Shown here piece by piece: positions 12,568-25,143 of a stretch of DNA of 56,427 nucleotides (the stretch's first letter is position 1; each line of letters starts with the position of its first letter). A program made the position numbers and the translations under genes. The DNA comes from Prevotella sp. (GTDB lineage Bacteria; Bacteroidota; Bacteroidia; Bacteroidales; Bacteroidaceae), in assembly GCA_017545045.1 (NCBI GenBank), contig JAFYDA010000064.1, positions 1 to 56,427 of the forward strand. Reading direction: 5' to 3'. A model generated the notes under the pieces. That model was given only the letters and a program-made list of their open reading frames with translations. It was not told the DNA's origin and made no database searches.

Positions 12568-12654
12568 GGAGTTTGGCACATCGTTCTTTTCTTTTGGCAA
12601 AGCCCTGCTGCCAAGGATGTGTAACGTTAAAACAGATTGTTAAGTGTTAAATGC

Positions 12655-12686
12655 TTTGAGTAGTTGGGGAAAAATGAGTAATTTTG
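12655..12686 (+). promoter_or_regulatory. Promoter of the solute-binding-like lipoprotein gene
   Basis: TTTG (12655-12658), 20 nt, TAATTTTG (12679-12686): a near-ideal Bacteroidetes promoter. The ATG at 12716 lies about 25 nt after the likely transcription start, which excludes the in-frame upstream start at 12644. Confidence 0.8.
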
Positions 12687-12715
12687 CAAACTCACAAGTG
12701 ATAATTGAGAAAAAG

Positions 12716-13636
12716 ATGAAAAAACTGCTATACCTGCTTATCGCCACACTCGTCATGGCAGCCTGCGGTCAGTCGTACGAAGAGAAGCGCAAACTGTCGC
12801 GACAAGAACGGCTCCGGCTGATGCGCCAGGACTCCGCCGCCCTGAAAATCGCCGTCATGCCGACACTGGACTGCCTTCCGCTCTTCGTGGCCCGGCACCA
12901 CCAGCTGTTTGAGGCGGCAGGGGCCGACATCAGGCTGAAGCAGTTCACGGCCCAGATGGACTGCGACACGGCCATTGCCGGCGGCAGTGTCGAAGGCTGC
13001 GTCACCGACCTCGTGAGGGCGGAGCGGCTGAAGAAGCAGGGGACGCCGCTGAGGTACATGACACGGACAGACGCCTACTGGCAGTTGTTCTCCAACCGGA
13101 TGGCCCGAATCAAGGAACTGAGACAGCTTGACGACAAAATGGTGGGTGCAACACGCTTTTCGGCTACCGACATGCTGACAAGCATGGCCGTTGACAGCTG
13201 TAAAATGAAAACAGAAAACGTCTACCGCATACAGGTGAACGACGTGCATATCCGTCTGAAGATGCTGATGGCCGACGAGGTGGATGCTGCCTGGCTGACA
13301 GAGCCGCAGGCCACGGAGGCCCGGCTGGCCCGCCACCGCCTGATGACGGACAGCCGCGGTCTGAAAGTACAATTAGGAGCTATTGCTTTCAGAGAGGTCA
13401 TATTTGCAGACTCGACGCGGCAGAAACAGATTGAGGTGTTCAAGAAAGCCTACAATCAGGCGTGCGACTCGCTGAAGCGATACGGCACAGGCCGCTATCG
13501 CGACGTCATCATAACATATTGCAAGATGAAGCCCGAACAGGCAGACTCGCTGCCGAAGGACTTACAATTCCACCATATAACAGCCCCCGCAGATGATGAC
13601 ATCAAGCGGGCGCAGGAATGGCTCAACAAACAATAA
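12716..13636 (+). CDS. Lipoprotein with ABC solute-binding (NMT1/SsuA-like) fold
   Basis: The protein (about 306 aa) starts MKKLLYLLIATLVMAACGQ, a lipoprotein signal with lipidation at Cys17. The body resembles NMT1/THI5/TauA-type periplasmic binding proteins: LKIAVMPTLDCLPLFVARHH, KQFTAQMDCDTAIAGGSVEG and DEVDAAWLTEPQA. Such proteins deliver small molecules to ABC importers, but no permease or ATPase gene is nearby. The next gene starts within 10 nt. Substrate unknown; a sensory or chaperone use of the fold is possible. Confidence 0.75.
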   Translation: MKKLLYLLIATLVMAACGQSYEEKRKLSRQERLRLMRQDSAALKIAVMPTLDCLPLFVARHHQLFEAAGADIRLKQFTAQMDCDTAIAGGSVEGCVTDLVRAERLKKQGTPLRYMTRTDAYWQLFSNRMARIKELRQLDDKMVGATRFSATDMLTSMAVDSCKMKTENVYRIQVNDVHIRLKMLMADEVDAAWLTEPQATEARLARHRLMTDSRGLKVQLGAIAFREVIFADSTRQKQIEVFKKAYNQACDSLKRYGTGRYRDVIITYCKMKPEQADSLPKDLQFHHITAPADDDIKRAQEWLNKQ

Positions 13637-13643
13637 CAAGGAG

Positions 13644-15842
13644 ATGATACGGAACGAAACTTTGCAATCCGCCCTGGAGTGTGTGGTCAACCGCCAACTG
13701 GGAAAGGCCGTCAACCTTCTGGAAAACTATCTCTACACGTTCGTGCAGCCTCAGGCCACCGAGCAGTTGGAAGAGCTGAAGACCGACTATCAGTTGATGG
13801 CGGAATACTGGCAAAGGGGATTCGAAGACCCGGAACGGGAACGGCTGTACGACAAGCTGCTGCACAGGATGTACGTGCTCGTCAGCAATGAGTATATACG
13901 CTACTACATCAAGAACAGCAGCTTCGCCAAAAGCGTCTACGACCGGACGAGGGCGGCAAGGAAAGACTGGTCGCCAAATGCAATCCGACAGGACATGGAG
14001 TCGTTTGTAACTGACGCGGCCATGCTGGAACTGGAGCCAGAGCATACCAGACAACAAAGGCAAAGAGAGGTGTACGAAAAGCATCAGAAGATGATGGCCG
14101 ACCTGTTTGACTACATCTGGACATCAAGGCTTTGGAACAGCAGGGTGACAGAAGCCTTCGAAGACATGCTCCTATCGCCGACCATCGACTTACGCGACCA
14201 ACAACTCCTTGTGAGCGCTATCACGGTGTCGCTGATCAACTTTTTCGACATCAGCAAGTTCCGCCTGTTGATGCACGTCTACCAGAAAGCCCCGGACGAA
14301 CATGTCAGACAGCGGGCACTGATTGGATGGGTGATGGGCATCGACACGGCCGCTGCACGACTATACCCTGAGGTTGGCGAAATGGTGAAAGCCGCGACAA
14401 CAGACAGCCGCTGCATAGACGAACTGGCAGAGTTGCAAATGCAGACCATCTACTGCCTGAGGGCCGAGAGCGACACGCAGATCATACAGAGCGAAATCAT
14501 GCCCGAACTGATAAAGAACAACAACATCCGAGTGACACGCAACGGCATTGAGGAAGCTGAAGACGACCCCATGGAGGACGTGCTGCACCCGGAAATAGCG
14601 GAGCAGCGAATGGAGAAACTGGAAGAAAGCATGCGACGCATGGTCGACATGCAGAAACAGGGGTCGGACATCTATTTCGGAGGATTCTCGCAGATGAAGC
14701 GTTTCCCGTTCTTCGGCACCGTGGGCAACTGGTTTCTCCCTTTCTTTCTTCAGCATCCCGCCGTCGACGGCGCAATGAGCCAGACAAGAGGAAAAAAATT
14801 CCTGCTGACGATGCTGAAGCACGGCCCCTTCTGCGACAGCGACAAATACTCGTTCGTCTTGGCTTTTCAGACTACGGTCAGCAAACTGCCTGAGAGCATG
14901 CTGGCCATGATGGACCGCGGCGAGGCGACATTGGTGGGAAGTGAAATAAATGTGGACGAAGTGAATTCGCCGGCATTCATCCGGCGCTCCTACCTGCAAA
15001 GCGTCTATCGCTTCTTCCGCGTCTTCCACGCCCGCAACCAGTTCTGCAATCCTTTCGACGTGGAAGAGCGGTCGCGACTGTTCTTCTTTGCCAACCCCCT
15101 GTTCCAGGACACACCACTTGAGAAGAAATTCCATGAGGTGGCCGCCTTCTTCATGAAGCACAAGGTTTACGAAGCTGCCAAGGCCACACTGCAGAACTAT
15201 CGCGAGGAGATAAGAGACGAGCAGTTCTATCTTCTGAACGGCAACCTGCTGATGCGTACCCACTGGCAACAGAACGCCGGACTGACAGCCAGCGAAAGCC
15301 TTGCTCACTGCTTAGAGCTGAACCCGGAGAACGAACGGGCATGGACAGGATACGCCCGAACACTGTTTGGTGAACAGAATTACGAAAAGGCGCTGCACTA
15401 TTATCGGAAGCTGGAAGAAAGACACGCCGACAACCGGAATTACCAGTTGAACGAAGCCGTGTGTCTGACAAACATGAAAAGAAATGAAGACGCCCTGAAA
15501 ATCCTGTTTAAGCTCAATTACGAATCACCTGAAGACATCAACACCAATCGCGTACTGGCATGGACTTTGGTCGGAGCCAAGCGATACGAACAGGCGAAGA
15601 CCATCTATGAAAGCCTGTTGGACACAGAGAAGCCCGCAGCTGATGACCTGATGAACGCTGCCTATATGCACTGGTTCTGCGGCGACAGGACGGCGGCAAT
15701 CAACCTCTTCAGGAAGTATTCCCACATGGAGGGCATCGCATTCGATGCTACAACAGAATTCCTTACCAACGAAAAAGCCATGCTCAATGAGCACGGCATA
15801 AGCGAAGTGGAAATACGCCTGATGATTGACCAACTGCTATAG
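13644..15842 (+). CDS. TPR-repeat protein of unknown function, 732 aa
   Basis: The ATG at 13644 directly follows an AAGGAG-like sequence 7 nt after the lipoprotein gene stop; an upstream in-frame start at 13593 would overlap that gene. No signal peptide is seen, so it is probably cytosolic. The N-terminal ~500 residues are helical and not recognised. The C-terminal ~220 residues carry TPR-like units (AHCLELNPENERAWTGYART, ALHYYRKLEERHADNRNYQL, ALKILFKLNYESPEDINTN, AKTIYESLLDTEKPAADDL). It probably acts with the coupled lipoprotein gene product, but how is unclear. The 3' end overlaps the convergent phospholipase D gene by 6 nt. Confidence 0.75.
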   Translation: MIRNETLQSALECVVNRQLGKAVNLLENYLYTFVQPQATEQLEELKTDYQLMAEYWQRGFEDPERERLYDKLLHRMYVLVSNEYIRYYIKNSSFAKSVYDRTRAARKDWSPNAIRQDMESFVTDAAMLELEPEHTRQQRQREVYEKHQKMMADLFDYIWTSRLWNSRVTEAFEDMLLSPTIDLRDQQLLVSAITVSLINFFDISKFRLLMHVYQKAPDEHVRQRALIGWVMGIDTAAARLYPEVGEMVKAATTDSRCIDELAELQMQTIYCLRAESDTQIIQSEIMPELIKNNNIRVTRNGIEEAEDDPMEDVLHPEIAEQRMEKLEESMRRMVDMQKQGSDIYFGGFSQMKRFPFFGTVGNWFLPFFLQHPAVDGAMSQTRGKKFLLTMLKHGPFCDSDKYSFVLAFQTTVSKLPESMLAMMDRGEATLVGSEINVDEVNSPAFIRRSYLQSVYRFFRVFHARNQFCNPFDVEERSRLFFFANPLFQDTPLEKKFHEVAAFFMKHKVYEAAKATLQNYREEIRDEQFYLLNGNLLMRTHWQQNAGLTASESLAHCLELNPENERAWTGYARTLFGEQNYEKALHYYRKLEERHADNRNYQLNEAVCLTNMKRNEDALKILFKLNYESPEDINTNRVLAWTLVGAKRYEQAKTIYESLLDTEKPAADDLMNAAYMHWFCGDRTAAINLFRKYSHMEGIAFDATTEFLTNEKAMLNEHGISEVEIRLMIDQLL

Positions 15843-17099
15843 CCAAGGACGCAGCAGCGAGCCGAACCATCCACGGAACTTCTGCCACGGGGTGCGGAAC
15901 TCATTCCACGTCTCACGGGTCAGATAAAAGCTGTCCATCTTGTCACGGTCAAACATGTCGTCCAACTGTTTCGTTATCTCACGACTTAGGATGACGGCAT
16001 TCTCCTCATAGTCGAAACGCATACTGCGGGCATCGAGGTTTGCAGAGCCCACTGTACAGAAACGGCCGTCGACCATCAGGATCTTGGAATGATGGAACCC
16101 CGGCTCGTACAGCCACACATGGGCACCACACTTCTTCATCTTATACGCATTCCGGAAAACACAGTCTGGAGTCAGCGGCACATCACTCTTAGCCGACACC
16201 ATGATTTCTACTTTCACGCCACGCCTGACAGCCCGTTTCAAAGCCTTCTTAACTGAGGACGTCAGCGTGAAATAGGGATTAATAAGTTTCAGAGAATCCT
16301 GCGCTGCATCAATGGCGTTGACATACAGTGCTCTCATGGCATCGCTCTTACCCAGCACATAACCATCGGTAGAATAGACAGCCCCTGGCTCACGGTTAAC
16401 GATGCCTATCGTCTTGTCGCCAACAGGCAAGCCCTTGAAATACTGGGGCTTTATAATATCTTCGCCTGTCACTTCCTGCCAGATGCGGCAGAAAATATGC
16501 TGCAGCTCATTGACGGCCGGCCCTTCAATGCGGCAGTGCATGTCGCGCCATGAACCTACCTGCTCCGTACCTTTTATATAATAGTCGGCCACATTCATGC
16601 CGCCCGTATAGGCTATACGCCCGTCAATAACCACTATCTTCCTGTGGTCACGAGGCCAGATATGGTTCACCCATGGGAACCGGATGGGGTCAAACTCATA
16701 AATATCAACACTGTCCCGACGAAGTGCCTCCAGATGATATTTCTTCAAGGGCTGGTTATTGGAGTCGTTGCCAAATCCGTCGAACAAGGCCCTTACCTCA
16801 ACTCCTTCACGTCGTTTCTCCCGAAGGATATCAAACAACAGGGAGGCTATCGAGTCGTTGCGGAAATTGAAATATTCCAGATGCACACTATGACGTGCCT
16901 GACGGATAGCCTTAAACATGTCATCAAACTTTGCCTGACCGCTCATCAGCAATGTCACATTGTTGCCTTCTGTAAAGCGTATGCCATAGTCAGCCATACG
17001 CTGGCGAAAAAGGACATCACTGGTCTGTGCCGCAGACAGCATGGGAACCGAGGCGAGAATAGCCACCGCTATCGCCGCCCATCTGCAAAAAACTCTCAT
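15837..17099 (-). CDS. Phospholipase D family / cardiolipin-synthase-like enzyme
   Basis: This 420-aa protein has two complete HKD motifs, HRKIVVIDGRIAYTGGMN and HHSKILMVDGRFCTVGSAN, in the arrangement of bacterial cardiolipin synthases, which condense two phosphatidylglycerols. Unlike typical ClsA, which has two membrane helices, it has a single cleavable-looking leader (IAVAILASVPMLSAAQ), so it may work in the periplasm. Other phosphatidyl transfer or phospholipase reactions are possible. Its ATG overlaps the stop of the upstream pseudo-hybrid regulator by 4 nt, so the two are coupled. Confidence 0.85.
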   Translation of the reverse strand: MRVFCRWAAIAVAILASVPMLSAAQTSDVLFRQRMADYGIRFTEGNNVTLLMSGQAKFDDMFKAIRQARHSVHLEYFNFRNDSIASLLFDILREKRREGVEVRALFDGFGNDSNNQPLKKYHLEALRRDSVDIYEFDPIRFPWVNHIWPRDHRKIVVIDGRIAYTGGMNVADYYIKGTEQVGSWRDMHCRIEGPAVNELQHIFCRIWQEVTGEDIIKPQYFKGLPVGDKTIGIVNREPGAVYSTDGYVLGKSDAMRALYVNAIDAAQDSLKLINPYFTLTSSVKKALKRAVRRGVKVEIMVSAKSDVPLTPDCVFRNAYKMKKCGAHVWLYEPGFHHSKILMVDGRFCTVGSANLDARSMRFDYEENAVILSREITKQLDDMFDRDKMDSFYLTRETWNEFRTPWQKFRGWFGSLLRPWL

Positions 17100-20000
17100 C
17101 TGCGATGTTTCAATCTATATTCAAGTGGCGACAGGCCAAACTTCTCCTTAAAAATCTTGATAAAGTTCTCGGCAGTCATAAAGCCTATGTTCGTCGCCAG
17201 CTCACTCATGTTAATGTTTGTTCGTTTCAGTAAGATGCAGGCATGCTTCAACCGTAAGTCTCTGATCAGTTCGGCCGGCGTCTTATTGGTCAGGCTCCTC
17301 ACTTTGTGGAAGAACGGTACACGTCCCATACCCATGGCATTAGCCATTTCTTCCAGACTGATTTGACCACGGCTCATATTCTGCATCACATACTGTTCGA
17401 TGTTAATCATCAACTGGCGGTCCGTAGCCTCAGCCATAGAGTAGTCGCCAAGAGTCTCGCCGCCTGTCTCGTCATTGATAATCTCAGCAAGTGCATTATT
17501 TTGAGCCACAGGCACATTCTTGCTGCGCAGGCTAGTATCCACGATGCTCATCTCGTCATCAACAGGACGCTCGTCATTCCCTGCATTAGCATATTCCGTT
17601 GGCATGTCTATGCTCTCCGTTGCTGTAGTCATACTGGCGTTCCGTCCCTCTAAACGACGCGTCTCCGCACCCTCTATGAGATTACTGTCAGCATTGACGG
17701 GGCCGAGTCCGAGAAGCATATTAAACCTCATAACGGCATCCTGCATATTGAAAGGCTTAGCCAGATAATCATCCGCAGCCAATGTGATATTCAAACTCTT
17801 CATGTCCTGCGGGGTCAACGTACCGTCGGTCATCAACACAAACTTTGACCGCTCCGTAGAAGGATTCATCTTCAACTGGTTACAAAGCTCACTACCCGTC
17901 AGTCCCGGCATATTCTGCTTACAGACAACCAGGTCTACAGTCATATTCTTCAAGTCCTCGGCGGCTTTCCTTGAGTTGTTGAACACATGGAAATCATAGA
18001 CGTTGTATAGACGAGCTTTGGCAAACTTCAGGAATTCTTCATTATCATCGATAAAGAACACCACAACCTTACTAGTAGGCGACTCAACACGGCGGTGTAT
18101 CATGATGTCAGACGACAACTCGTCGCCCGTAAGCGTAGGCAGGTTCAGTTCACCCTTAGCATTCAGCTCGTAGTGACCATGCACATTCTGCTTGGCGCGC
18201 TCCTCAGGATTCTCAAGCGAGGTCTGCATATCAGAGACGCGGGTTATGACTTGCAGCATCTGCGAATGGAGAGCATTCAGCTGTTCACGTTCCTCAAGAG
18301 ACTTCTCCTTCTCTGCCAGGTTGCCAATAATGGATGTCATGCGAGCCATCGGCTGACGCAAATCTTCACTGGCCGACTTTATTTCCTCGCGCTGCATCTT
18401 CAGCTCCATGATGACAGCCTCCTTCTTGCGCTTGATAGCCTTCAGCTGATCGATACCTATCTTCCAAATATAGAGGACGACAATAATCACAATGGCATAG
18501 ATAAGCAGCATCCACCAACTAAAGTACCAGGGGCGATGGACGGTAATCTCCAGCGTACGCTCCTGTTTACTGACGGCACCTTCCGCACTCATGGCCTTCA
18601 CATGCAGTATATAGGTACCGCTCGGCAAATCGTGGAAGGTCACGCCATGCCGGATAGCATCACCATCCTTCCAGTCATGGTCAAGTCCCTCCATCCAATA
18701 CTTGAACTGCAGACGTTCACTCTGATTGTAATTGCCGCCAGAGAACTTGATCGTTATGGTGTTCTGATCGTTCTCCAGTTCTATGTGAGAAGTCTCATTC
18801 AAAGCCTGAGCCAATACCACATTATCATTATAGGAATGACCTATCTGCACCTCCTCTTCACCAAGGAACAACTGTGTCAGCATAACCCTCGGAAGAGCAT
18901 CGGTAGTATTACCTAAACCATGGCGCGTCATGTTGACACCGTACAGTGAGCCAAACAACACATCACCATTATCCTTAGCTAAAATGGCACCTGTATTGAA
19001 CTCGTTGCTCAGCAGTCCGTCAGACAGGTTGTAGTTGTATAATCCATATCCGATACTACCGTCGTCAGTATTGCGCTGAACAACAATACGAGTGAGGCCA
19101 TTACTCGTTGTAACCCACATATTCTGCCTGTTATCCTCAGTAATACCGCATATATTATTGTTCAGCAGTCCCTGGCGCTCTGTGATATAATCCAGATTAT
19201 CGTTCTCCATGTTAAGGACATTGATACCTTCACGCGTCCCTAACCAAATCAGTCCACGAGAATCCTGATACACCTGAGTAATATAGTTATTTGTAAACGA
19301 CTTCAGGTTGGTCGTGTTACCCGTCAGATGCTTCATTTCCAATGAAGACAGGCTCAGGATCAACAGCCCCTCGCCAGTACCCACCAACAGATTATTCTCC
19401 TTCGTATAGAACAACGATGTAATGCTGTTCGTCGTCAGTTTGCCATTCTCCCTCGTATAGCTTGAGAAAGTATTCATTTTAGGATTATAGACCTGCATAC
19501 CACCGTTAGTGGCAATCCACAAGTTACCAGTCTTGTCCGTACACAAAGCGTTGACATGATCGTCTATCAGAGTCCTCATGCTGTCTTTTGCCAGCGAATA
19601 GATGGTGCTCACGCCATCCTTGATACGAGTCAGTCCGTTTTGCTTCGAGCCCACCCACAGACTTCCGTCCTTGGTAAACTGCATAGCCGTCACCTTCTTG
19701 CTGGCCAATACCCCGTCAAAACCAACGACACCACTATTGCTCGTTCCGAAGCATACGCTGTCCTTATCGTTCTTGGCCATGGCGGTGACGTCACCTATCT
19801 GACGAGAATAGAAACGATAGATGTTCTTACCGTAATAGGCCACACCGGACTTCTCGGTACCAACCCACAGCAGGTCGGTGTCGTCCACGTAAATACTCTG
19901 AACTCTCACCACGTCAGTATTCAGACATCCTGTCCTCATATTTCTGGTTTCGGCCACTTCTATCTGTCGCGTATTCATATCCATACGCAGCAGTCCAGCG

Positions 20001-20863
20001 CGATCCGTACCAATCCAGATATTTCCATTATGGTCGCCATCCATGCCATTGACAGAGTTGTCCACGCCAACGCCCGTCAACCCGATTTGGTCGCCGACAG
20101 AAGTATCCCACGTATCCGTACTCTTGTTATATACAAACAACGTACCTTGGCCATAAAGCCAGATGTTGTCCATTTGATCGGCATAAGCCTTCAATGTGTT
20201 AGACTTACGGAGTTTGCGCTCAGCTATCTCGTATGTTTTCCACACCGTTTGCTGCTGGTGCATGACATCACAGCAAACCACACGACCGTCGTCATATACA
20301 ATAAGAGCACCATCACGGCATTCACTGATGGAACAAACCTTACCTTGAGGCACACTTTGAGCATCGTCAGTATAACCGAATTCCAGAAGCGTCTGCCGTT
20401 GCATGTGATAACAGATGATACCTTTATTGGGAATGTAGCCCCACACGTTCTTGTACTTATCCATGTAGATAATGGAGGGGATACGCTCAATTCCCATACG
20501 AGCAAGCGTCTGCTTCATGTCGCGCTCAAAAGTCTCTGTCTGCGGATGATAGATACAGTAGCCAGCTGCCGTGCTAATCCACAACGTTCCGTCCATTTGT
20601 TCCTGGATAGAGTTGATGTAGCTGTCAGGCAACGACGAACCGTCCTGCGAGTCACATTGGAAATTCTTGAATGTATAGCCGTCAAAGCGGTAGAGTCCTG
20701 CTGGAGTTCCAAACCACACATAACCCTTACTGTCTTTTAGGATACAGTTAATCTGACTGCTGGTGAGTCCGTCTTTGGCATCCAGCGTCTTAAACAGATA
20801 GATGGCCGCAGCCGCCATGGGCAGTGCCACCAGCATTATTATCAATATTCTAAATCGTCTCAT
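17096..20863 (-). CDS. Hybrid two-component-like regulator lacking kinase and phospho-acceptor
   Basis: The ATG at 20863 gives 1255 aa: an N-terminal membrane leader, a periplasmic two-component-type beta-propeller (repeats such as DSKGYVWFGTPAGLYRFDG), a Y_Y_Y domain near 700-770, a TM helix at ~780-802, a DHp-like coiled coil, a receiver-like domain at ~935-1055 and an AraC DNA-binding domain at ~1155-1255. The phospho-His position of the DHp box is Glu833 (SEDLRQP), the ~150-residue HATPase domain is absent, and the receiver has Lys982 (LVVCKQNMPG) instead of the phospho-acceptor Asp, although the acidic pair D939/D940, the Thr and the Lys of LAKPF remain. It could be a one-component transmembrane regulator. 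It follows kdsD by ~40 nt and overlaps the phospholipase D gene by 4 nt. Confidence 0.9.
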   Translation of the reverse strand: MRRFRILIIMLVALPMAAAAIYLFKTLDAKDGLTSSQINCILKDSKGYVWFGTPAGLYRFDGYTFKNFQCDSQDGSSLPDSYINSIQEQMDGTLWISTAAGYCIYHPQTETFERDMKQTLARMGIERIPSIIYMDKYKNVWGYIPNKGIICYHMQRQTLLEFGYTDDAQSVPQGKVCSISECRDGALIVYDDGRVVCCDVMHQQQTVWKTYEIAERKLRKSNTLKAYADQMDNIWLYGQGTLFVYNKSTDTWDTSVGDQIGLTGVGVDNSVNGMDGDHNGNIWIGTDRAGLLRMDMNTRQIEVAETRNMRTGCLNTDVVRVQSIYVDDTDLLWVGTEKSGVAYYGKNIYRFYSRQIGDVTAMAKNDKDSVCFGTSNSGVVGFDGVLASKKVTAMQFTKDGSLWVGSKQNGLTRIKDGVSTIYSLAKDSMRTLIDDHVNALCTDKTGNLWIATNGGMQVYNPKMNTFSSYTRENGKLTTNSITSLFYTKENNLLVGTGEGLLILSLSSLEMKHLTGNTTNLKSFTNNYITQVYQDSRGLIWLGTREGINVLNMENDNLDYITERQGLLNNNICGITEDNRQNMWVTTSNGLTRIVVQRNTDDGSIGYGLYNYNLSDGLLSNEFNTGAILAKDNGDVLFGSLYGVNMTRHGLGNTTDALPRVMLTQLFLGEEEVQIGHSYNDNVVLAQALNETSHIELENDQNTITIKFSGGNYNQSERLQFKYWMEGLDHDWKDGDAIRHGVTFHDLPSGTYILHVKAMSAEGAVSKQERTLEITVHRPWYFSWWMLLIYAIVIIVVLYIWKIGIDQLKAIKRKKEAVIMELKMQREEIKSASEDLRQPMARMTSIIGNLAEKEKSLEEREQLNALHSQMLQVITRVSDMQTSLENPEERAKQNVHGHYELNAKGELNLPTLTGDELSSDIMIHRRVESPTSKVVVFFIDDNEEFLKFAKARLYNVYDFHVFNNSRKAAEDLKNMTVDLVVCKQNMPGLTGSELCNQLKMNPSTERSKFVLMTDGTLTPQDMKSLNITLAADDYLAKPFNMQDAVMRFNMLLGLGPVNADSNLIEGAETRRLEGRNASMTTATESIDMPTEYANAGNDERPVDDEMSIVDTSLRSKNVPVAQNNALAEIINDETGGETLGDYSMAEATDRQLMINIEQYVMQNMSRGQISLEEMANAMGMGRVPFFHKVRSLTNKTPAELIRDLRLKHACILLKRTNINMSELATNIGFMTAENFIKIFKEKFGLSPLEYRLKHRR

Positions 20864-20905: not shown

Positions 20906-21853
20906 TCATATCATGCAAGAATAATGATCGACAACACCTAACAGTCGTCTATTGTCATCGACGACAAGCACACTGTGAATCTTGTATTTATTCATGATTT
21001 TCTGAATTTCCGATATCTTCATGTTCGGAGCTACCATCTTAGGCGTCTTGGTCATAATGTCTTCCACCGTATGATCGAAGAAATGCGCCTGCCACTTCTC
21101 CATAGCCCTACGGATGTCACCGTCGGTAATCAAACCAACGACTCGCCCGTCGATCTCTGCCACTCCCAATCCTAACTTACCCTTGCTCACTTCAATGACA
21201 GCCTCGCCTAAGTGCATTGACGGACTGATGACGGGCATGTCGACCGTCCGCATGACATCCTGAGCTGTTGTCAGCAGCCGTTTTCCAAGTTCACCGCCGG
21301 GATGGAACTGCGCAAAGTCCTGTGGCTGGAAGTTGCGCTTTTTAATGAGTGCCACCGCCAGTGCATCTCCCATTACCATCTGAGCCGTTGCGCTACTCGT
21401 CGGAGCCAAATCCATCGGGTCTGCCTCATGACGCACGCTGACATTCAAATGGCATTCAGCATATTTCGCCAACAACGAATCAGGATTGCCGCTCATGGCT
21501 ATGATGGGAATCTCCATCTGGAGCACCATTGGAATAAAGCGCAGCAACTCGTCAGTCTGTCCTGAGTTAGATATAGCCAACACAACGTCATCGCTCGTCA
21601 TCACGCCCAAATCGCCATGGAACACGTCTAACGGATTGATAAAGAACGAAGGCGTTCCCGTTGATGACAATGTGGCGGCAATCTTGGCTCCGACATGGCC
21701 ACTCTTTCCCACTCCCGTCACAATAATCTTGCCATGGCAGCGGAACATCAACTCGACAGCACGGTCAAACTGCTCATCCATTTTTGGAATGAGTTCCATC
21801 AGCGCCTCTGCCTCATCTTTAATGCAATTGATAGCGTATTCTCTGACTGTCAT
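20906..21853 (-). CDS. kdsD: D-arabinose-5-phosphate isomerase KdsD/KpsF
   Basis: Converts ribulose-5-phosphate to arabinose-5-phosphate, the first step of Kdo synthesis for lipopolysaccharide. The 315-aa cytosolic protein has a SIS sugar-isomerase domain (IIVTGVGKSGHVGAKIAATL, LAISNSGQTDELL, DLAPTSSATAQM) followed by two CBS domains from about residue 205 (DVMRTVDMPVI ... DIMTKTPKMVAPNMKISEI). Its ATG overlaps the kdsA stop by 4 nt. Confidence 0.95.
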   Translation of the reverse strand: MTVREYAINCIKDEAEALMELIPKMDEQFDRAVELMFRCHGKIIVTGVGKSGHVGAKIAATLSSTGTPSFFINPLDVFHGDLGVMTSDDVVLAISNSGQTDELLRFIPMVLQMEIPIIAMSGNPDSLLAKYAECHLNVSVRHEADPMDLAPTSSATAQMVMGDALAVALIKKRNFQPQDFAQFHPGGELGKRLLTTAQDVMRTVDMPVISPSMHLGEAVIEVSKGKLGLGVAEIDGRVVGLITDGDIRRAMEKWQAHFFDHTVEDIMTKTPKMVAPNMKISEIQKIMNKYKIHSVLVVDDNRRLLGVVDHYSCMI

Positions 21854-22608
21854 GACACCAACTCCTTTATCAGCAACTCCAGTTTCTCCAGTTCCAACAT
21901 ATTGGCAGCATCGCTCTTCCCTTCATCAGGATTCGGATGTACTTCAAAAAAGAAACCCGTGGCTCCGAAGGCTTTGGCAGCAAGAGCCATCTGAGGTACA
22001 AAGCGGCGGTCGCCGCCTGTCTTGCCATCACTGCCGCCAGGCCGCTGTACACTGTGCGTACAATCCATTATAACCGTCGGCACTAACTCCAGCATATCAG
22101 GAATATTGCGGAAGTCTACCACCAGATTATTATAGCCCATCATGTTGCCTCGCTCCGTCAACCACACGTCTTTGGCTCCGGCATCAAGGGCTTTCTCTAC
22201 AGGGTATTTCATATCGCGGCCACTCAGGAACTGTGCTTTCTTGATGTTCACGACTCGCCCAGTCTTGGCAGCAGCCACCAGCAGGTCAGTCTGCCGACAC
22301 AGGAAAGCCGGAATCTGGATAACGTCACACACCTGTCCCACAGGGTCTGCCTGCCAGCTTTCATGGATGTCTGTCAGCAGTCGCAACCCATATTTCGCTT
22401 TCACGTCGGCCAGCATCTGCAATCCTTTCTCCAGGCCTGGTCCACGGAATGAGCGGATGGATGTACGATTGGCCTTGTCGAACGAAGACTTGAATATAAT
22501 ATCCGTCCCCAACACGCCATTGATTCGCACCAGTTCCTGAGCTACCGTGTCCAGTAGCCCGGCAGATTCTATCACACAGGGGCCAGCAATGATTGTCATG
22601 TTATTCAT
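21850..22608 (-). CDS. kdsA: Kdo-8-phosphate synthase KdsA
   Basis: Condenses arabinose-5-phosphate with phosphoenolpyruvate to Kdo-8-phosphate. Family landmarks: TIIAGPCVIESAG, FKSSFDKANRTS, GLRLLTDIHES, DVIQIPAFLCRQTDLL, KKAQFLSGRDM and VIMDCTHSVQRPGG. The start at ATG 22608 is chosen because a -7 box at 22625-22618 puts the transcription start near 22611; an upstream in-frame TTG would lie in the promoter. It leads the kdsA-kdsD-regulator-phospholipase run. Confidence 0.94.
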   Translation of the reverse strand: MNNMTIIAGPCVIESAGLLDTVAQELVRINGVLGTDIIFKSSFDKANRTSIRSFRGPGLEKGLQMLADVKAKYGLRLLTDIHESWQADPVGQVCDVIQIPAFLCRQTDLLVAAAKTGRVVNIKKAQFLSGRDMKYPVEKALDAGAKDVWLTERGNMMGYNNLVVDFRNIPDMLELVPTVIMDCTHSVQRPGGSDGKTGGDRRFVPQMALAAKAFGATGFFFEVHPNPDEGKSDAANMLELEKLELLIKELVS

Positions 22609-22617
22609 ATCAACTTG

Positions 22618-22625
22618 CAAAGATA
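22618..22625 (-). promoter_or_regulatory. -7 box of the kdsA promoter
   Basis: TATCTTTG on the minus strand, about 10 nt upstream of the kdsA ATG. No clear TTTG partner is seen. The mRNA would be nearly leaderless. Confidence 0.5.
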
Positions 22626-22711: not shown

Positions 22712-25063
22712 CTAACTTTTTTCAACGATGTGGACATCGCGCTGCGGGAACGGGATTTCAATATGGTTGGCCGCGAGCGTGTCATAGACGCACTTCAGCA
22801 CGTCGCTGATAACATACGATTTCATCGGAGCGTCTGCCCACACAAAGAGTTTGAAGTCCACGCTCGAGTCATTCATCTGCGACACAACGGCCTTCACCTT
22901 CTTCTTCTTGTCCATCCACTTATGGTGCATGCCGTTGACAGCCTCCTCAATCACCTCCGTCACCTGTTTCAGGTTCGAGCCGTAGGCCACGCCGAAGGGA
23001 ACGACAGCCAGTACATAGCCGTGGTTCTTCGTCAGATTCTTATAGTTCTTGGTAAACAACTGCGAATTCTGGAAAGTGATAATCTCACCATAGAGCGACT
23101 CCACCACGGTCGACGTGTAGCTGATGCTGGTCACACGCCCCATCACGCCGTCCACCTCTATCCAGTCGCCCACTTTCACGCGGCCGGCCATGAGCGAAGC
23201 ACCATAGTAGATATTCTCGATGATGTCCTTCGAAGCGAAACCGATACCCGTTGACAGACCGCCCGAAATAGCCAGCAGCCAAGCAAGGCTGATGTTAAGG
23301 ATACTGAGCGACAGCATCAGCCAGACGCCCCAGACGAGCACCTGAATGACGTTACGCCCCATCACCTCGCGGCTCTGCGCCGTCGTGGGATCCTGCTGCT
23401 GATAGTGCAGCCGCATCAATTCCAAAATGGTATGTGTGAAATATCTGAACAGGAACCACAGGTTGATGACCATCGCCACCTTCAGGATACTGATGCTCAG
23501 GTTGGGCGTATTGACAAACTTCTCCTTGAACAGTTTCATGCAGAGGTCGCTCAGGTTGAAAATATCGGCAGCCCAGTAGATGCTCATCATGACCGACAGA
23601 ACGCCCATGACGGGCAGCGCTACCTTGTAAAGCAGTCTGTATAGCCAACTCTTCGTGATTGGAGCATCCTCCAGTCCGTGACGTTTGCCATACAGGTGTA
23701 CGTACTGGCTCACGCAGGTGATGGTCAGGATGCACGTCAGCTGCATAATCCACCAGATGAGCAGTTGCACACTGAGCAGCGTATAGCCCGACCACGACAG
23801 TGCCACCGAGACCATGAACACCACAAGCGATACATAGGTATAGAACATATCCGACTTGGGCACGTTCTTATTGTGACGGCGAATGACGCGCCACTGCCAC
23901 AACAGACAAGCCAAGAGTATCAGGGGAAACAGCAGGTTCACCAGTTCGTTGGGAATCAGCGTAATGCGGATGGCTATCACTATAAAGCCCATAGCCACCA
24001 GTGGAGCATAGATGTGGAATGCGCTCTTGATTTGCTCGCTATTGACGCGCAGCAACAATGAAATAAGGATGACACCCAGCAGCCATGCATATTCTATCAG
24101 CAAGTCACTGGCCATAATGAAGAAGTTCTGCTCCAGCGTGGCGCGTAGCACACCCATGATGACTGCAAACGTTATCGTCGTCGTCGTCATGATGATGCAG
24201 GTACGCTTTTTCAGGAACTCCTCCGTATGAAAACGCTTTGGCAACAGAAAGCGGAATGCCAGCAGGTTAAGCACAATGGAAATCACAATATAGAGGGCTA
24301 TGACGCCGAACAATCCGAAAACGAACTTGCTGTCCCACTGCGACTCGCTTGCTCTCGGGCGGTATTTCTCCTCCATCGACTCTTTCGCAGACACCCATTG
24401 CTCATCCAGATTTCCCAGCATCCACAGATAATTTTGTCCTCCGTTCTTGAAGATGCTGGCCTGAATGTCGCTATAGCGCTGATTGGCATAGTCATTCAGC
24501 GACTTCAGTCGTCCCTCCGTCACTTCGTAATAGTGTATATGGTCTTTTATCTGCTCACGGGCCTCCACCAGTTTACCCCGTATCTCTATGGTCAGCTTCA
24601 AACAGTCAGAACGGTTCTTTCGCGCCTTGCTTTTCAGCACACGTTCAGGAATCACCTCAAGACTACTCACCAGACTGTCACACTTGGCTATCTCTGAATC
24701 GATCGTTGTCAGATAGTTGCGGAATGGTGTCTGAGATCGCTGGAAGGCTTGATACTGCTCCGTGGCTTGATGGCAGGCGTAAGTCATGTCGAACACGAAA
24801 TTGCGTTTCTGCGAGTAGAGCATCAGCGCGTTCTGGCTGCTCTGCCGCATGGTTTCTATCAGCTGGCCCAATATGATTTTCCGCTGCTGCTGGCGCTCCT
24901 CCGTTATTTCCGTCAGCAGACGATGTTGCTCGGTCAGTTCTGACTTGAGCACCGCCAACGTCTGTTCCAAATCGCGCTCCTTCAGCACGGCGTGGCTCAT
25001 ATTTATTCCGCTGGCCAGTATCACCAGCAGTAGAAATAATCTTTTTGTCACTGTTTTCTTCAT
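22712..25063 (-). CDS. Large MscS-family mechanosensitive channel
   Basis: From the ATG at 25063 the protein begins with a signal peptide (MKKTVTKRLFLLLVILASG); an in-frame ATG at 25123 would add 20 residues. A long periplasmic helical/coiled-coil region of about 250 residues precedes multiple membrane helices, then the MscS pore and beta domain (LAISGGLSTGIGFASKDIIE, VGDWIEVDGVMGRVTSIS, FQNSQLFTKNYKNLTKN). Such channels release osmolytes on hypo-osmotic shock; the extended N-terminus resembles MscK/YbiO-type members. It is inner-membrane. Confidence 0.9.
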   Translation of the reverse strand: MKKTVTKRLFLLLVILASGINMSHAVLKERDLEQTLAVLKSELTEQHRLLTEITEERQQQRKIILGQLIETMRQSSQNALMLYSQKRNFVFDMTYACHQATEQYQAFQRSQTPFRNYLTTIDSEIAKCDSLVSSLEVIPERVLKSKARKNRSDCLKLTIEIRGKLVEAREQIKDHIHYYEVTEGRLKSLNDYANQRYSDIQASIFKNGGQNYLWMLGNLDEQWVSAKESMEEKYRPRASESQWDSKFVFGLFGVIALYIVISIVLNLLAFRFLLPKRFHTEEFLKKRTCIIMTTTTITFAVIMGVLRATLEQNFFIMASDLLIEYAWLLGVILISLLLRVNSEQIKSAFHIYAPLVAMGFIVIAIRITLIPNELVNLLFPLILLACLLWQWRVIRRHNKNVPKSDMFYTYVSLVVFMVSVALSWSGYTLLSVQLLIWWIMQLTCILTITCVSQYVHLYGKRHGLEDAPITKSWLYRLLYKVALPVMGVLSVMMSIYWAADIFNLSDLCMKLFKEKFVNTPNLSISILKVAMVINLWFLFRYFTHTILELMRLHYQQQDPTTAQSREVMGRNVIQVLVWGVWLMLSLSILNISLAWLLAISGGLSTGIGFASKDIIENIYYGASLMAGRVKVGDWIEVDGVMGRVTSISYTSTVVESLYGEIITFQNSQLFTKNYKNLTKNHGYVLAVVPFGVAYGSNLKQVTEVIEEAVNGMHHKWMDKKKKVKAVVSQMNDSSVDFKLFVWADAPMKSYVISDVLKCVYDTLAANHIEIPFPQRDVHIVEKS

Positions 25064-25143
25064 TGTAAAGGTCTCTTTGGGCACACCCATGTAGTCTGAA
25101 ATCTGCTTGTAGAGTTGTTTCATTCTCAATCTTCAATTGGCTG

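Follow-up and report, generated by a model that had tools for sequence, protein, structure and literature searches.

The regulator and its missing catalytic parts

The window analysed here is a 56,427-nucleotide stretch of Prevotella sp. (contig JAFYDA010000064.1), and our subject is one gene on its minus strand (17096-20863), which has no stop across 1255 codons and encodes a regulator of the hybrid two-component system (HTCS) type. Pfam, used for the domain calls on this protein (Table 1), finds eight Reg_prop stretches (E 2.6e-38), and sequence matches in the PDB make the sensor a homologue of the solved HTCS sensors 4a2l/4a2m and 3v9f (E 1.8e-63 and 8.2e-53). A Y_Y_Y domain, a membrane helix read by eye, a DHp-like hairpin, a receiver-like domain and an AraC domain follow, sensor, membrane helix and DNA-binding domain standing in one chain as in transmembrane one-component regulators (for transmembrane regulators in general, see the passages on them in PMC10269533). 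What the protein has in common with HTCSs is the propeller/Y_Y_Y sensor, the AraC domain and its descent, as judged from trees of sensor and AraC columns; what is missing is a HisKA domain with its phospho-His, a HATPase_c domain, a receiver with its phospho-Asp and the S/CHIP-DK contact. The HisKA model matches only below threshold (residues 824-879, E 0.1), scoring 13.1 bits where the cut-off is 26.9. The receiver-like domain reaches 99.9% in hhalign against the receivers of kinase HTCSs and, as a PF00072 match without the phospho-Asp, is a pseudo-receiver.

In the alignment, Glu833 occupies the place of the phospho-His (SASEDLRQP against SHELRTP) and Lys982 that of the phospho-Asp (VVCKQNMPG against VVSDVMMPG), and no HATPase model of Pfam matches the protein at E <= 1. 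The same losses run through 96 distinct Prevotella(ceae) sequences, collapsed from 110 frames, among which the window's own was entered in its ATG-started form; some of the 96 are up to 98% identical to each other, and L105 is truncated to 985 residues at a contig end. Position 833 is Asp in 73 and Glu in 23 and never His, the commonest residue of the clade thus being Asp, not the Glu of the window. Position 982 is Lys in 94, Arg in one (L097) and Met in one (L088), and the adjacent C981 is kept in 95. A HATPase model was made from 21 kinase HTCSs and recovers all 21 by construction; in the 96 it finds none at E <= 10, and a HATPase domain of 111 positions could not fit in any case, since only 53-61 residues lead from residue 880 to the receiver residue 935.

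Selection was measured on 13 close pairs, chosen among the 86 that are more than 85% identical. The ratio of nonsynonymous to synonymous substitution rates (dN/dS; Nei-Gojobori, sums over the pairs) is 0.037 for the regulator overall, 0.031 for the sensor, 0.030 for the pseudo-receiver and 0.020 for the AraC domain; over 12 pairs each, a saturated pair being left out, it is 0.034 for the membrane/pseudo-DHp part and 0.159 for the linker between receiver and AraC domain. The dead domains, at 0.034 and 0.030, are therefore constrained like the live ones. Of 150 genomes searched within the genus, 59 have the regulator: the alignment covers 1,080 residues or more in 57, 1,046 in one and a 292-residue fragment in one. 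When the set is restricted to genomes with a completeness of 90% or more and a contamination of 5% or less, 16/68 have it, and eight further matches there are other HTCS-type proteins. Locus counts refer to the best 80 of 130 relatives found in a contig scan, which are labelled Prevotella, Prevotellaceae, Bacteroidales and, once, bacterium.

The first-pass annotation, made from the window alone, had described an intact, non-decaying frame with propeller, Y_Y_Y, membrane helix and AraC domains, with Glu833 and Lys982 and without HATPase. All of this holds, the frame running intact from its ATG to its TGA under strong purifying selection. The operon around the gene did not figure in that annotation. 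It had also raised the question whether the Glu and Lys substitutions and the ATPase loss mark a conserved clade, and they do (833 acidic in 96/96, 982 Lys in 94/96); the close relatives with ATPase and Asp that it named as the sign of a strain-level deletion or an assembly error are absent from this set, in which His833, Asp982 and HATPase are each seen in 0/96. The window does come from a fragmented genome (134 contigs, 59% complete), which speaks for such an artefact. Against it, the gene order is identical in independent genomes, including strains khp7, ne3005, tc2-28 and MGM1 among the 80 loci, and the 95 further sequences and the dN/dS of 0.037 rule out a recent deletion, a decaying gene or a misassembly with near certainty.

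Table 1 Features of the regulator, of its neighbours and of other stripped HTCSs (window positions, except for loci labelled L)
Feature	Position	Strand	Basis or remark
Kinase-less HTCS-type regulator ('pHTCS'), 1255 aa	17096..20863	-	ATG 20863, TGA 17098-17096
Periplasmic propeller sensor, residues about 25-700	18764..20791	-	Pfam Reg_prop; PDB sequence matches
Y_Y_Y domain, residues 711-776	18536..18733	-	Pfam, E 7.6e-11
Membrane helix, about residues 783-801	18461..18517	-	Read from sequence by eye
Signalling helix and DHp-like hairpin, residues 803-886	18206..18457	-	Alignment; Pfam HisKA E 0.1
Glu833 codon at phospho-His position	18365..18367	-	Alignment
Short linker, residues 881-934, at HATPase place of HTCSs	18062..18223	-	Pfam, alignment, HATPase model
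Pseudo-receiver, residues 935-1043	17735..18061	-	Pfam Response_reg, E 4.3e-12
Lys982 codon at phospho-Asp position	17918..17920	-	Alignment
Alpha3-beta4 loop, residues 1004-1007, site of S/CHIP latch in Bacteroides HTCSs	17843..17854	-	Motif from the passages on it in PMC11253607
AraC-type DNA-binding domain, residues 1147-1255	17099..17425	-	Pfam HTH_18 1173-1250, E 1.9e-15; PDB sequence matches
PLD / cardiolipin-synthase-like gene	15837..17099	-	Start overlaps regulator stop (ATGA)
kpsF/kdsD-type arabinose-5-phosphate isomerase gene	20906..21853	-	42 bp upstream of regulator
kdsA (KDO-8-phosphate synthase; KDO, 3-deoxy-D-manno-octulosonate)	21850..22608	-	ATG 22608 likelier than listed TTG 22620
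Promoter-like TATCTTTGC before kdsA	22617..22625	-	-7 element read by eye
MscS-type channel gene	22712..25129	-	Upstream of kdsA in many of the 80 loci
Stripped-HTCS loci	L239:3329-9134, L240:718-6528, L241:2142-5267, L242:2590-8778, L243:2840-5920, L244:1629-4763		

Relatives and a probable order of losses

A family search with a membrane-to-receiver profile in 201 genomes gave near-full-model matches in G221 and G238, both of genus g2, and a receiver-only match in G257 of genus g8, whose protein has only 1157 residues. Pfam finds no HATPase in these relatives (L153 and L120 of g2, L154 of g8). The g2 pair carries Glu or Gln at the His position and Glu at the Asp position; the g8 protein has lost the DHp and keeps the receiver Asp. 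Wider searches gave no other ATPase-less relative. In the order (247 genomes, searched with the full protein at E <= 1e-130) the matches outside the genus are long frames, three of which proved to be kinase HTCSs; in the class (247 genomes, searched with the profile at E <= 1e-20) they are only the receiver parts of 1342-1408-residue frames.

In a tree of the sensor and AraC columns, kinase and receiver columns being left out, 21 Prevotella(ceae) rows and the three g2 and g8 relatives lie on one side of a branch with a Shimodaira-Hasegawa-like approximate likelihood ratio test (SH-aLRT) value of 98, opposite 21 kinase HTCSs, and a second tree of sensor columns with 11 clade rows returns the same grouping (SH-aLRT 96); both are quick searches without a mixture model. 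The kinase HTCSs, picked by similarity to the query and not at random, have His and Asp in 21/21, and the six checked with Pfam all have HisKA and HATPase; L226 (the same gene as one in L120) and L235 (its frame broken by a stop) are not among them. Within the ATPase-less clade the g8 protein branches off first, followed by the g2 pair. Because this first branch has no ATPase and still has its Asp, the simplest reading of the sequences would be that ATPase loss preceded Asp loss; the g8 line may also have lost its ATPase separately from the rest.

Other HTCSs of Prevotella have been stripped as well. Three sensor-pseudoDHp-AraC proteins (L241, L242 and L244) have Lys, Asp and Glu at the His position, as read by eye, and no receiver; sensor-HATPase proteins without a HisKA match or a receiver occur in L239, L240, L242 and L243, and sensor-only proteins with an acidic tail in L239 and L240. 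A tail like EEAVxMxxE is common to several of the sensor-HATPase and sensor-only proteins. The stripped forms stand in tandem in three of the six loci examined (L239, L240 and L242), and such disassembled HTCSs might form split, multi-protein HTCSs. The sensor-pseudoDHp-AraC proteins resemble the regulator in being kinase-less HTCS derivatives with Lys, Asp or Glu near the lost His, but they have no receiver and belong, with the sensor-HATPase and sensor-only proteins, to a separate clade: nine stripped proteins come together as one clade (SH-aLRT 100), in a larger group with nine kinase HTCSs and apart from the regulator clade. Stripping of HTCSs therefore seems to have happened at least twice in the group. 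The sensor-pseudoDHp-AraC paralogues of about 1040 residues, three of which were run through Pfam, occur in 8/150 genomes, one with an in-frame stop; the other 7 of the 15 paralogue-search matches are frames of 1323-1411 residues, matched only from query residue 74 or later. A link with the regulator was considered; the paralogues are other stripped HTCSs, and we claim no dependence on it.

The window's own genome encodes two more one-component regulators with HTCS-type sensors and with neither kinase nor receiver, a propeller-AraC protein of 836 residues (L236:970-3477, contig C112) and a contig-end Y_Y_Y-AraC frame (L237:2-1084, contig C65). Among the stripped HTCSs of this group, the regulator is the one that kept both dead domains. 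Its earlier description as a one-component version of the HTCS class stands insofar as sensor, membrane helix and AraC domain lie in one chain; it is not the sole case, given the derivatives within the genus and the SusR-like regulators treated in passages of PMC3878776.

A possible switch without phosphate

The stretch that would carry a signal from sensor to DHp is invariant in length. Residues 776-835 have the same length in 96/96 sequences and the DHp hairpin in 95/96, as counted by alignment, and the linker between receiver and AraC domain ranges over 90-136 residues. From the membrane to the RxP motif the spacing is 58 in 85/96 sequences by a regex anchor; the other 11 had no anchor, and all 96 were counted by alignment. 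In 17/21 kinase HTCSs it is 65 (16 by anchor, L231 by alignment), the others having 79, 61, 61 and 50; anchor values were used for L119, L218, L219, L224 and L225, which come out shortened in the alignment count. The clade is thus seven residues, one heptad, shorter between membrane and DHp motif than these 17 kinase HTCSs, a loss that would leave a coiled coil in register.

The pseudo-receiver keeps D939, T1012, D1031, K998 and K1036 in 96/96 and Y1033 in 94/96. The Thr, the Tyr and the Asp-Lys pair belong to the route by which phosphorylation is suggested to reach the alpha3-beta4 loop (Gao, Wu and Stock, PMC11253607, in the passages on that route). In that loop the receiver half of the S/CHIP latch is lost (Ser at 1004 in 17, His at 1005 in 2, Ile at 1006 in 29 and Pro at 1007 in none of the 96), Lys replacing the Pro in 93/96. 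The half in the DNA-binding domain is kept, with D1148 in 95/96 and Lys (60) or Arg (36) at 1187, the two positions being placed by the 39-residue spacing of BT4124. Nine of the nearest kinase HTCSs (L120_1825, L217, L218, L219, L220, L221, L222, L223 and L224) also have no S/C-H pair and keep the Pro, so the loss of this pair probably began before that of the kinase. We dropped S/CHIP loss as a hallmark of the clade; only the change from Pro to Lys (93/96) is special to the Prevotella sequences.

On this evidence we consider it reasonably likely that the regulator, an HTCS derivative, is a mechanical switch, acting at the membrane as a one-component transcription regulator without phosphorylation. 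Many gut and rumen Prevotella keep this large sensor strictly conserved in a cluster of cell-envelope genes, its parts for phosphate signalling gone, and its signal probably passes through the protein's own shape to the DNA-binding domain. Such conformational signalling, which the first-pass annotation had proposed, fits the anatomy as we read it from the alignments: a helix of fixed length, a kept DHp-like hairpin and kept T/Y/D-K relay residues. By analogy with known HTCS sensors, a periplasmic ligand, probably a saccharide or an envelope-derived glycan, would bind the propeller/Y_Y_Y dimer. The change would cross the membrane along a predicted coiled coil of fixed length and move the presumed, catalytically dead DHp bundle. 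Next in line, the pseudo-receiver, which has Lys982 in what was the phosphorylation pocket and retains the T1012/Y1033/D1031-K998 relay, would shift the AraC domains on their long variable linker, and the paired AraC domains would bind or release DNA.

Several observations weigh against this reading. In 91/150 genomes of the genus there is no match counted as regulator, and many species manage without the gene. The DHp is assigned by its place in the chain, by an L-R-x-P motif that is still present and by profile matches, which are weak (in one hhalign comparison a probability of 19% and E 2.6e-4; HisKA E 0.1), and helical periodicity passes only for both DHp-like helices jointly (shuffle p 0.012), the values for each singly being 0.11 and 0.057. 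The g2 relatives have a spacing of 54-55, which limits the exact heptad to the Prevotella clade. L154 has lost the DHp and has its Asp, so the DHp is not needed in every member.

The lost receiver half of the latch would also suit a constitutive DNA-binding protein, with AraC domains always free, activity set by protein level, membrane position or proteolysis, and a sensor serving as a dimerising scaffold; according to the passages of PMC11253607 on such variants, BT4124 latch mutants bind DNA independently of phosphorylation and BT2391, with a deviating motif, represses. We regard this as unlikely, because the sensor and the dead cytoplasmic domains are selected as strongly as the rest and the length from sensor to DHp is invariant, neither of which a mere scaffold would need. 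Nor need the loss of the latch mean a loss of control, since several of the nearest kinase HTCSs deviate at S/CH too.

The regulator might instead be a subunit of a network, its dead DHp pairing with that of a sensor kinase or an active HTCS, or its pseudo-receiver binding a small molecule or protein that sets its state. Pseudo-histidine kinases and ligand-binding pseudo-receivers are known (passages of PMC12632262), the DHp-like stretch is conserved, and a further long HTCS-type frame (1319 residues, contig C79) is present in the window's own genome. The regulator's own sensor, however, is complete and conserved, and because Lys982 cannot accept phosphate, the usual route would be closed to a partner kinase. 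A HATPase-type frame appears in the flanks, which reach 6 kb on each side at most, at no more than 4/80 loci (L054, L067, L101 and L109), so no kinase is regularly linked; an unlinked partner may exist. We hold such a network role to be unlikely. In three of the four loci the HATPase-type frames have 336-352 residues and lie near the upstream end, several kilobases from the regulator (L067:13-1059, L101:969-1976, L109:1032-2087).

If the mechanical switch is right, the HTCS scaffold works without phosphate. Sensor, dead DHp, pseudo-receiver and DNA-binding output form one covalent chain, with kinase-bearing relatives and four named strains for comparison, which makes switching by the pseudo-receiver directly testable. 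The Bacteroides HTCSs BT4663 and BT4124 have the same order of propeller/Y_Y_Y sensor, receiver-like and AraC domains, and in trees the regulator is joined to kinase HTCSs; unlike BT4663 and BT4124, it has no ATPase, His, Asp or S/CHIP and lies in a KDO/PLD operon setting. BT4236, a B. thetaiotaomicron HTCS, has likewise lost the phospho-His, replaced by Gln, and its latch deviates; a phosphorylation-independent mechanism was suggested for it in a passage of PMC11253607 that names these two changes and does not cover ATPase or Asp. SusR-like one-component regulators also combine a periplasmic sensor and a cytoplasmic DNA-binding domain in one membrane protein, but their DNA-binding domain has no significant similarity to other known ones, whereas here it is AraC HTH_18, and the passages on them in PMC3878776 mention no dead DHp or receiver. 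Aspartate-less receivers, such as RitR and the ShkA pseudo-receiver, share the fold without a phospho-Asp, and the regulator has also preserved the pocket Lys and the first acidic residue, which is common among them. The Asp is seldom replaced by Arg, Lys or His in that group, the three amounting to 4% of the substitutions (passages of PMC4395418), and in the present case the periplasmic sensor, the pseudo-receiver and the AraC output belong to one protein. A 2025 review (PMC12632262, in the passages concerned) reports that 2.0% of receivers have no Asp and 0.9% of HisKA domains no His, and states that the on/off mechanisms of bacterial pseudo-receivers remain a mystery; the terms Bacteroid-, HTCS and AraC do not occur in its text. 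We found no description of the present clade in the open-access papers searched, mostly by the start of the abstract, most subscription papers and preprints being outside that scope.

Gene neighbourhood and likely targets

PLD lies directly downstream of the regulator, in the same direction, in 80/80 loci, and kpsF directly upstream in 75/80. The commonest order is MscS, kdsA, kpsF, regulator and PLD, then convergent TPR and SsuA-like genes, as typed against 16 window genes only, with susC/susD outside that typing. From the regulator to the first possible PLD start the median distance is 0 over the 80 loci, 38 of them overlapping. Since TATCTTTGC precedes kdsA and the gap between kpsF and the regulator is only 42 bp, we read kdsA-kpsF-regulator-PLD as one operon; we take TATCTTTGC to fit the TAnnTTTG promoter element of Bacteroidota. 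This operon and other envelope genes are the likely targets to which gene order would point, a less certain element of the scheme than the rest.

The gene pair also occurs without the regulator. A search of 100 genomes within the genus gave PLD in 91, kpsF in 88 and both in 86, and in 79 of these 86 the two lie on one contig and strand (one of the 7 exceptions has the regulator). With the regulator, in 36 genomes, the kpsF and PLD matches are 3,775-4,058 bp apart in 35 and 9,581 bp apart in one; without it, in 43 genomes, kpsF and PLD are 17-268 bp apart. In L192 (G072), other genes spanning about 5.7 kb intervene between kpsF and the regulator, the regulator-PLD pair being intact. This genome search can miss genes: at E <= 1e-70 it gave no PLD match for G221, yet the L153 frame is 44% identical over 451 columns, so absences in it are no proof.

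In other genera, 6 of 36 PLD loci have kdsA-kpsF-PLD without the regulator (L168, L170, L173, L180, L183 and L189; five genera), and kdsA and kpsF were not seen beside PLD in the other 30, some of them short. The operon is therefore probably older than the insertion of the regulator. In a kpsF+PLD tree of 71 rows, likewise a quick search, from which L021, L078 and L106 were left out, the presence or absence of the regulator needs three changes among 65 rows (42 with it, 23 lacking it), and the deepest row, L083, has it. The simplest account is one early gain and about three losses, in counts that cannot separate gain from loss; in the short kpsF/PLD stretches of the 23 lacking loci, tblastn gave no remnant of the regulator better than E 0.18.

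The regulator could also serve carbohydrate uptake or catabolism like ordinary HTCSs, its place between kdsA-kpsF and PLD being incidental; this concerns the targets and is compatible with the switch. It has an HTCS-type sensor, studied HTCS sensors bind oligosaccharides (passages of PMC3878776), the g2 relatives lie beside an MFS sugar transporter, in one case also a MIP channel, and the window contains GH36 and GH2 genes. We nevertheless hold it to be doubtful in view of the linkage to PLD, which extends from 80/80 Prevotella(ceae) loci to two other genera. In L153 of g2 the regulator is followed by the MFS transporter, PLD, TPR and SsuA-like genes, and in L154 of g8 directly by PLD; L120 of g2 has no PLD within the 19 kb examined. 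If envelope genes are the targets, HTCS-type sensing extends from glycan catabolism to envelope lipid and lipopolysaccharide genes.

A wider account, which we put forward tentatively and at somewhat less than even chances, would be a staged conversion of a phosphorelay into a purely mechanical switch with DHp and receiver as its moving parts. The ATPase would have been lost first; in g2 the His would have become Gln or Glu and the Asp Glu; in Prevotella the His would have become Asp or Glu and the Asp a near-invariant Lys, with one heptad cut. The product would control envelope genes (KDO, phospholipid) and not glycan use, and the other Prevotella HTCS clade would have dismantled its kinase separately.

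A DNA operator upstream of kdsA was considered, shared words such as TATTTTTGC and TTTTGCAAA exceeding letter shuffles. We claim none, because the loci are related and the shared word fits what we presume to be the Bacteroidota promoter element.

Some details of the neighbours may be added. An MFS sugar transporter follows the ATPase-less regulator in both g2 loci (L153:10099-11562; L120:6148-8297), as does the MIP channel in L120, and these neighbours may hint at the ligand. Against TIGR04265, a cardiolipin synthase model with a cut-off of 290 bits, the PLD protein reaches 270 bits, with the N-terminal 100 model positions missing, and its reaction is uncertain. SsuA/NMT1-like lipoprotein and TPR genes (window 12644-15842) lie next to PLD and convergent with it in most of the 80 loci, and such genes precede kdsA in one locus of genus g15 (L173). 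The start of kdsA is probably ATG 22608 or 22599 (region 22597-22625), only a few bases past TATCTTTGC, and a very short leader is therefore expected.

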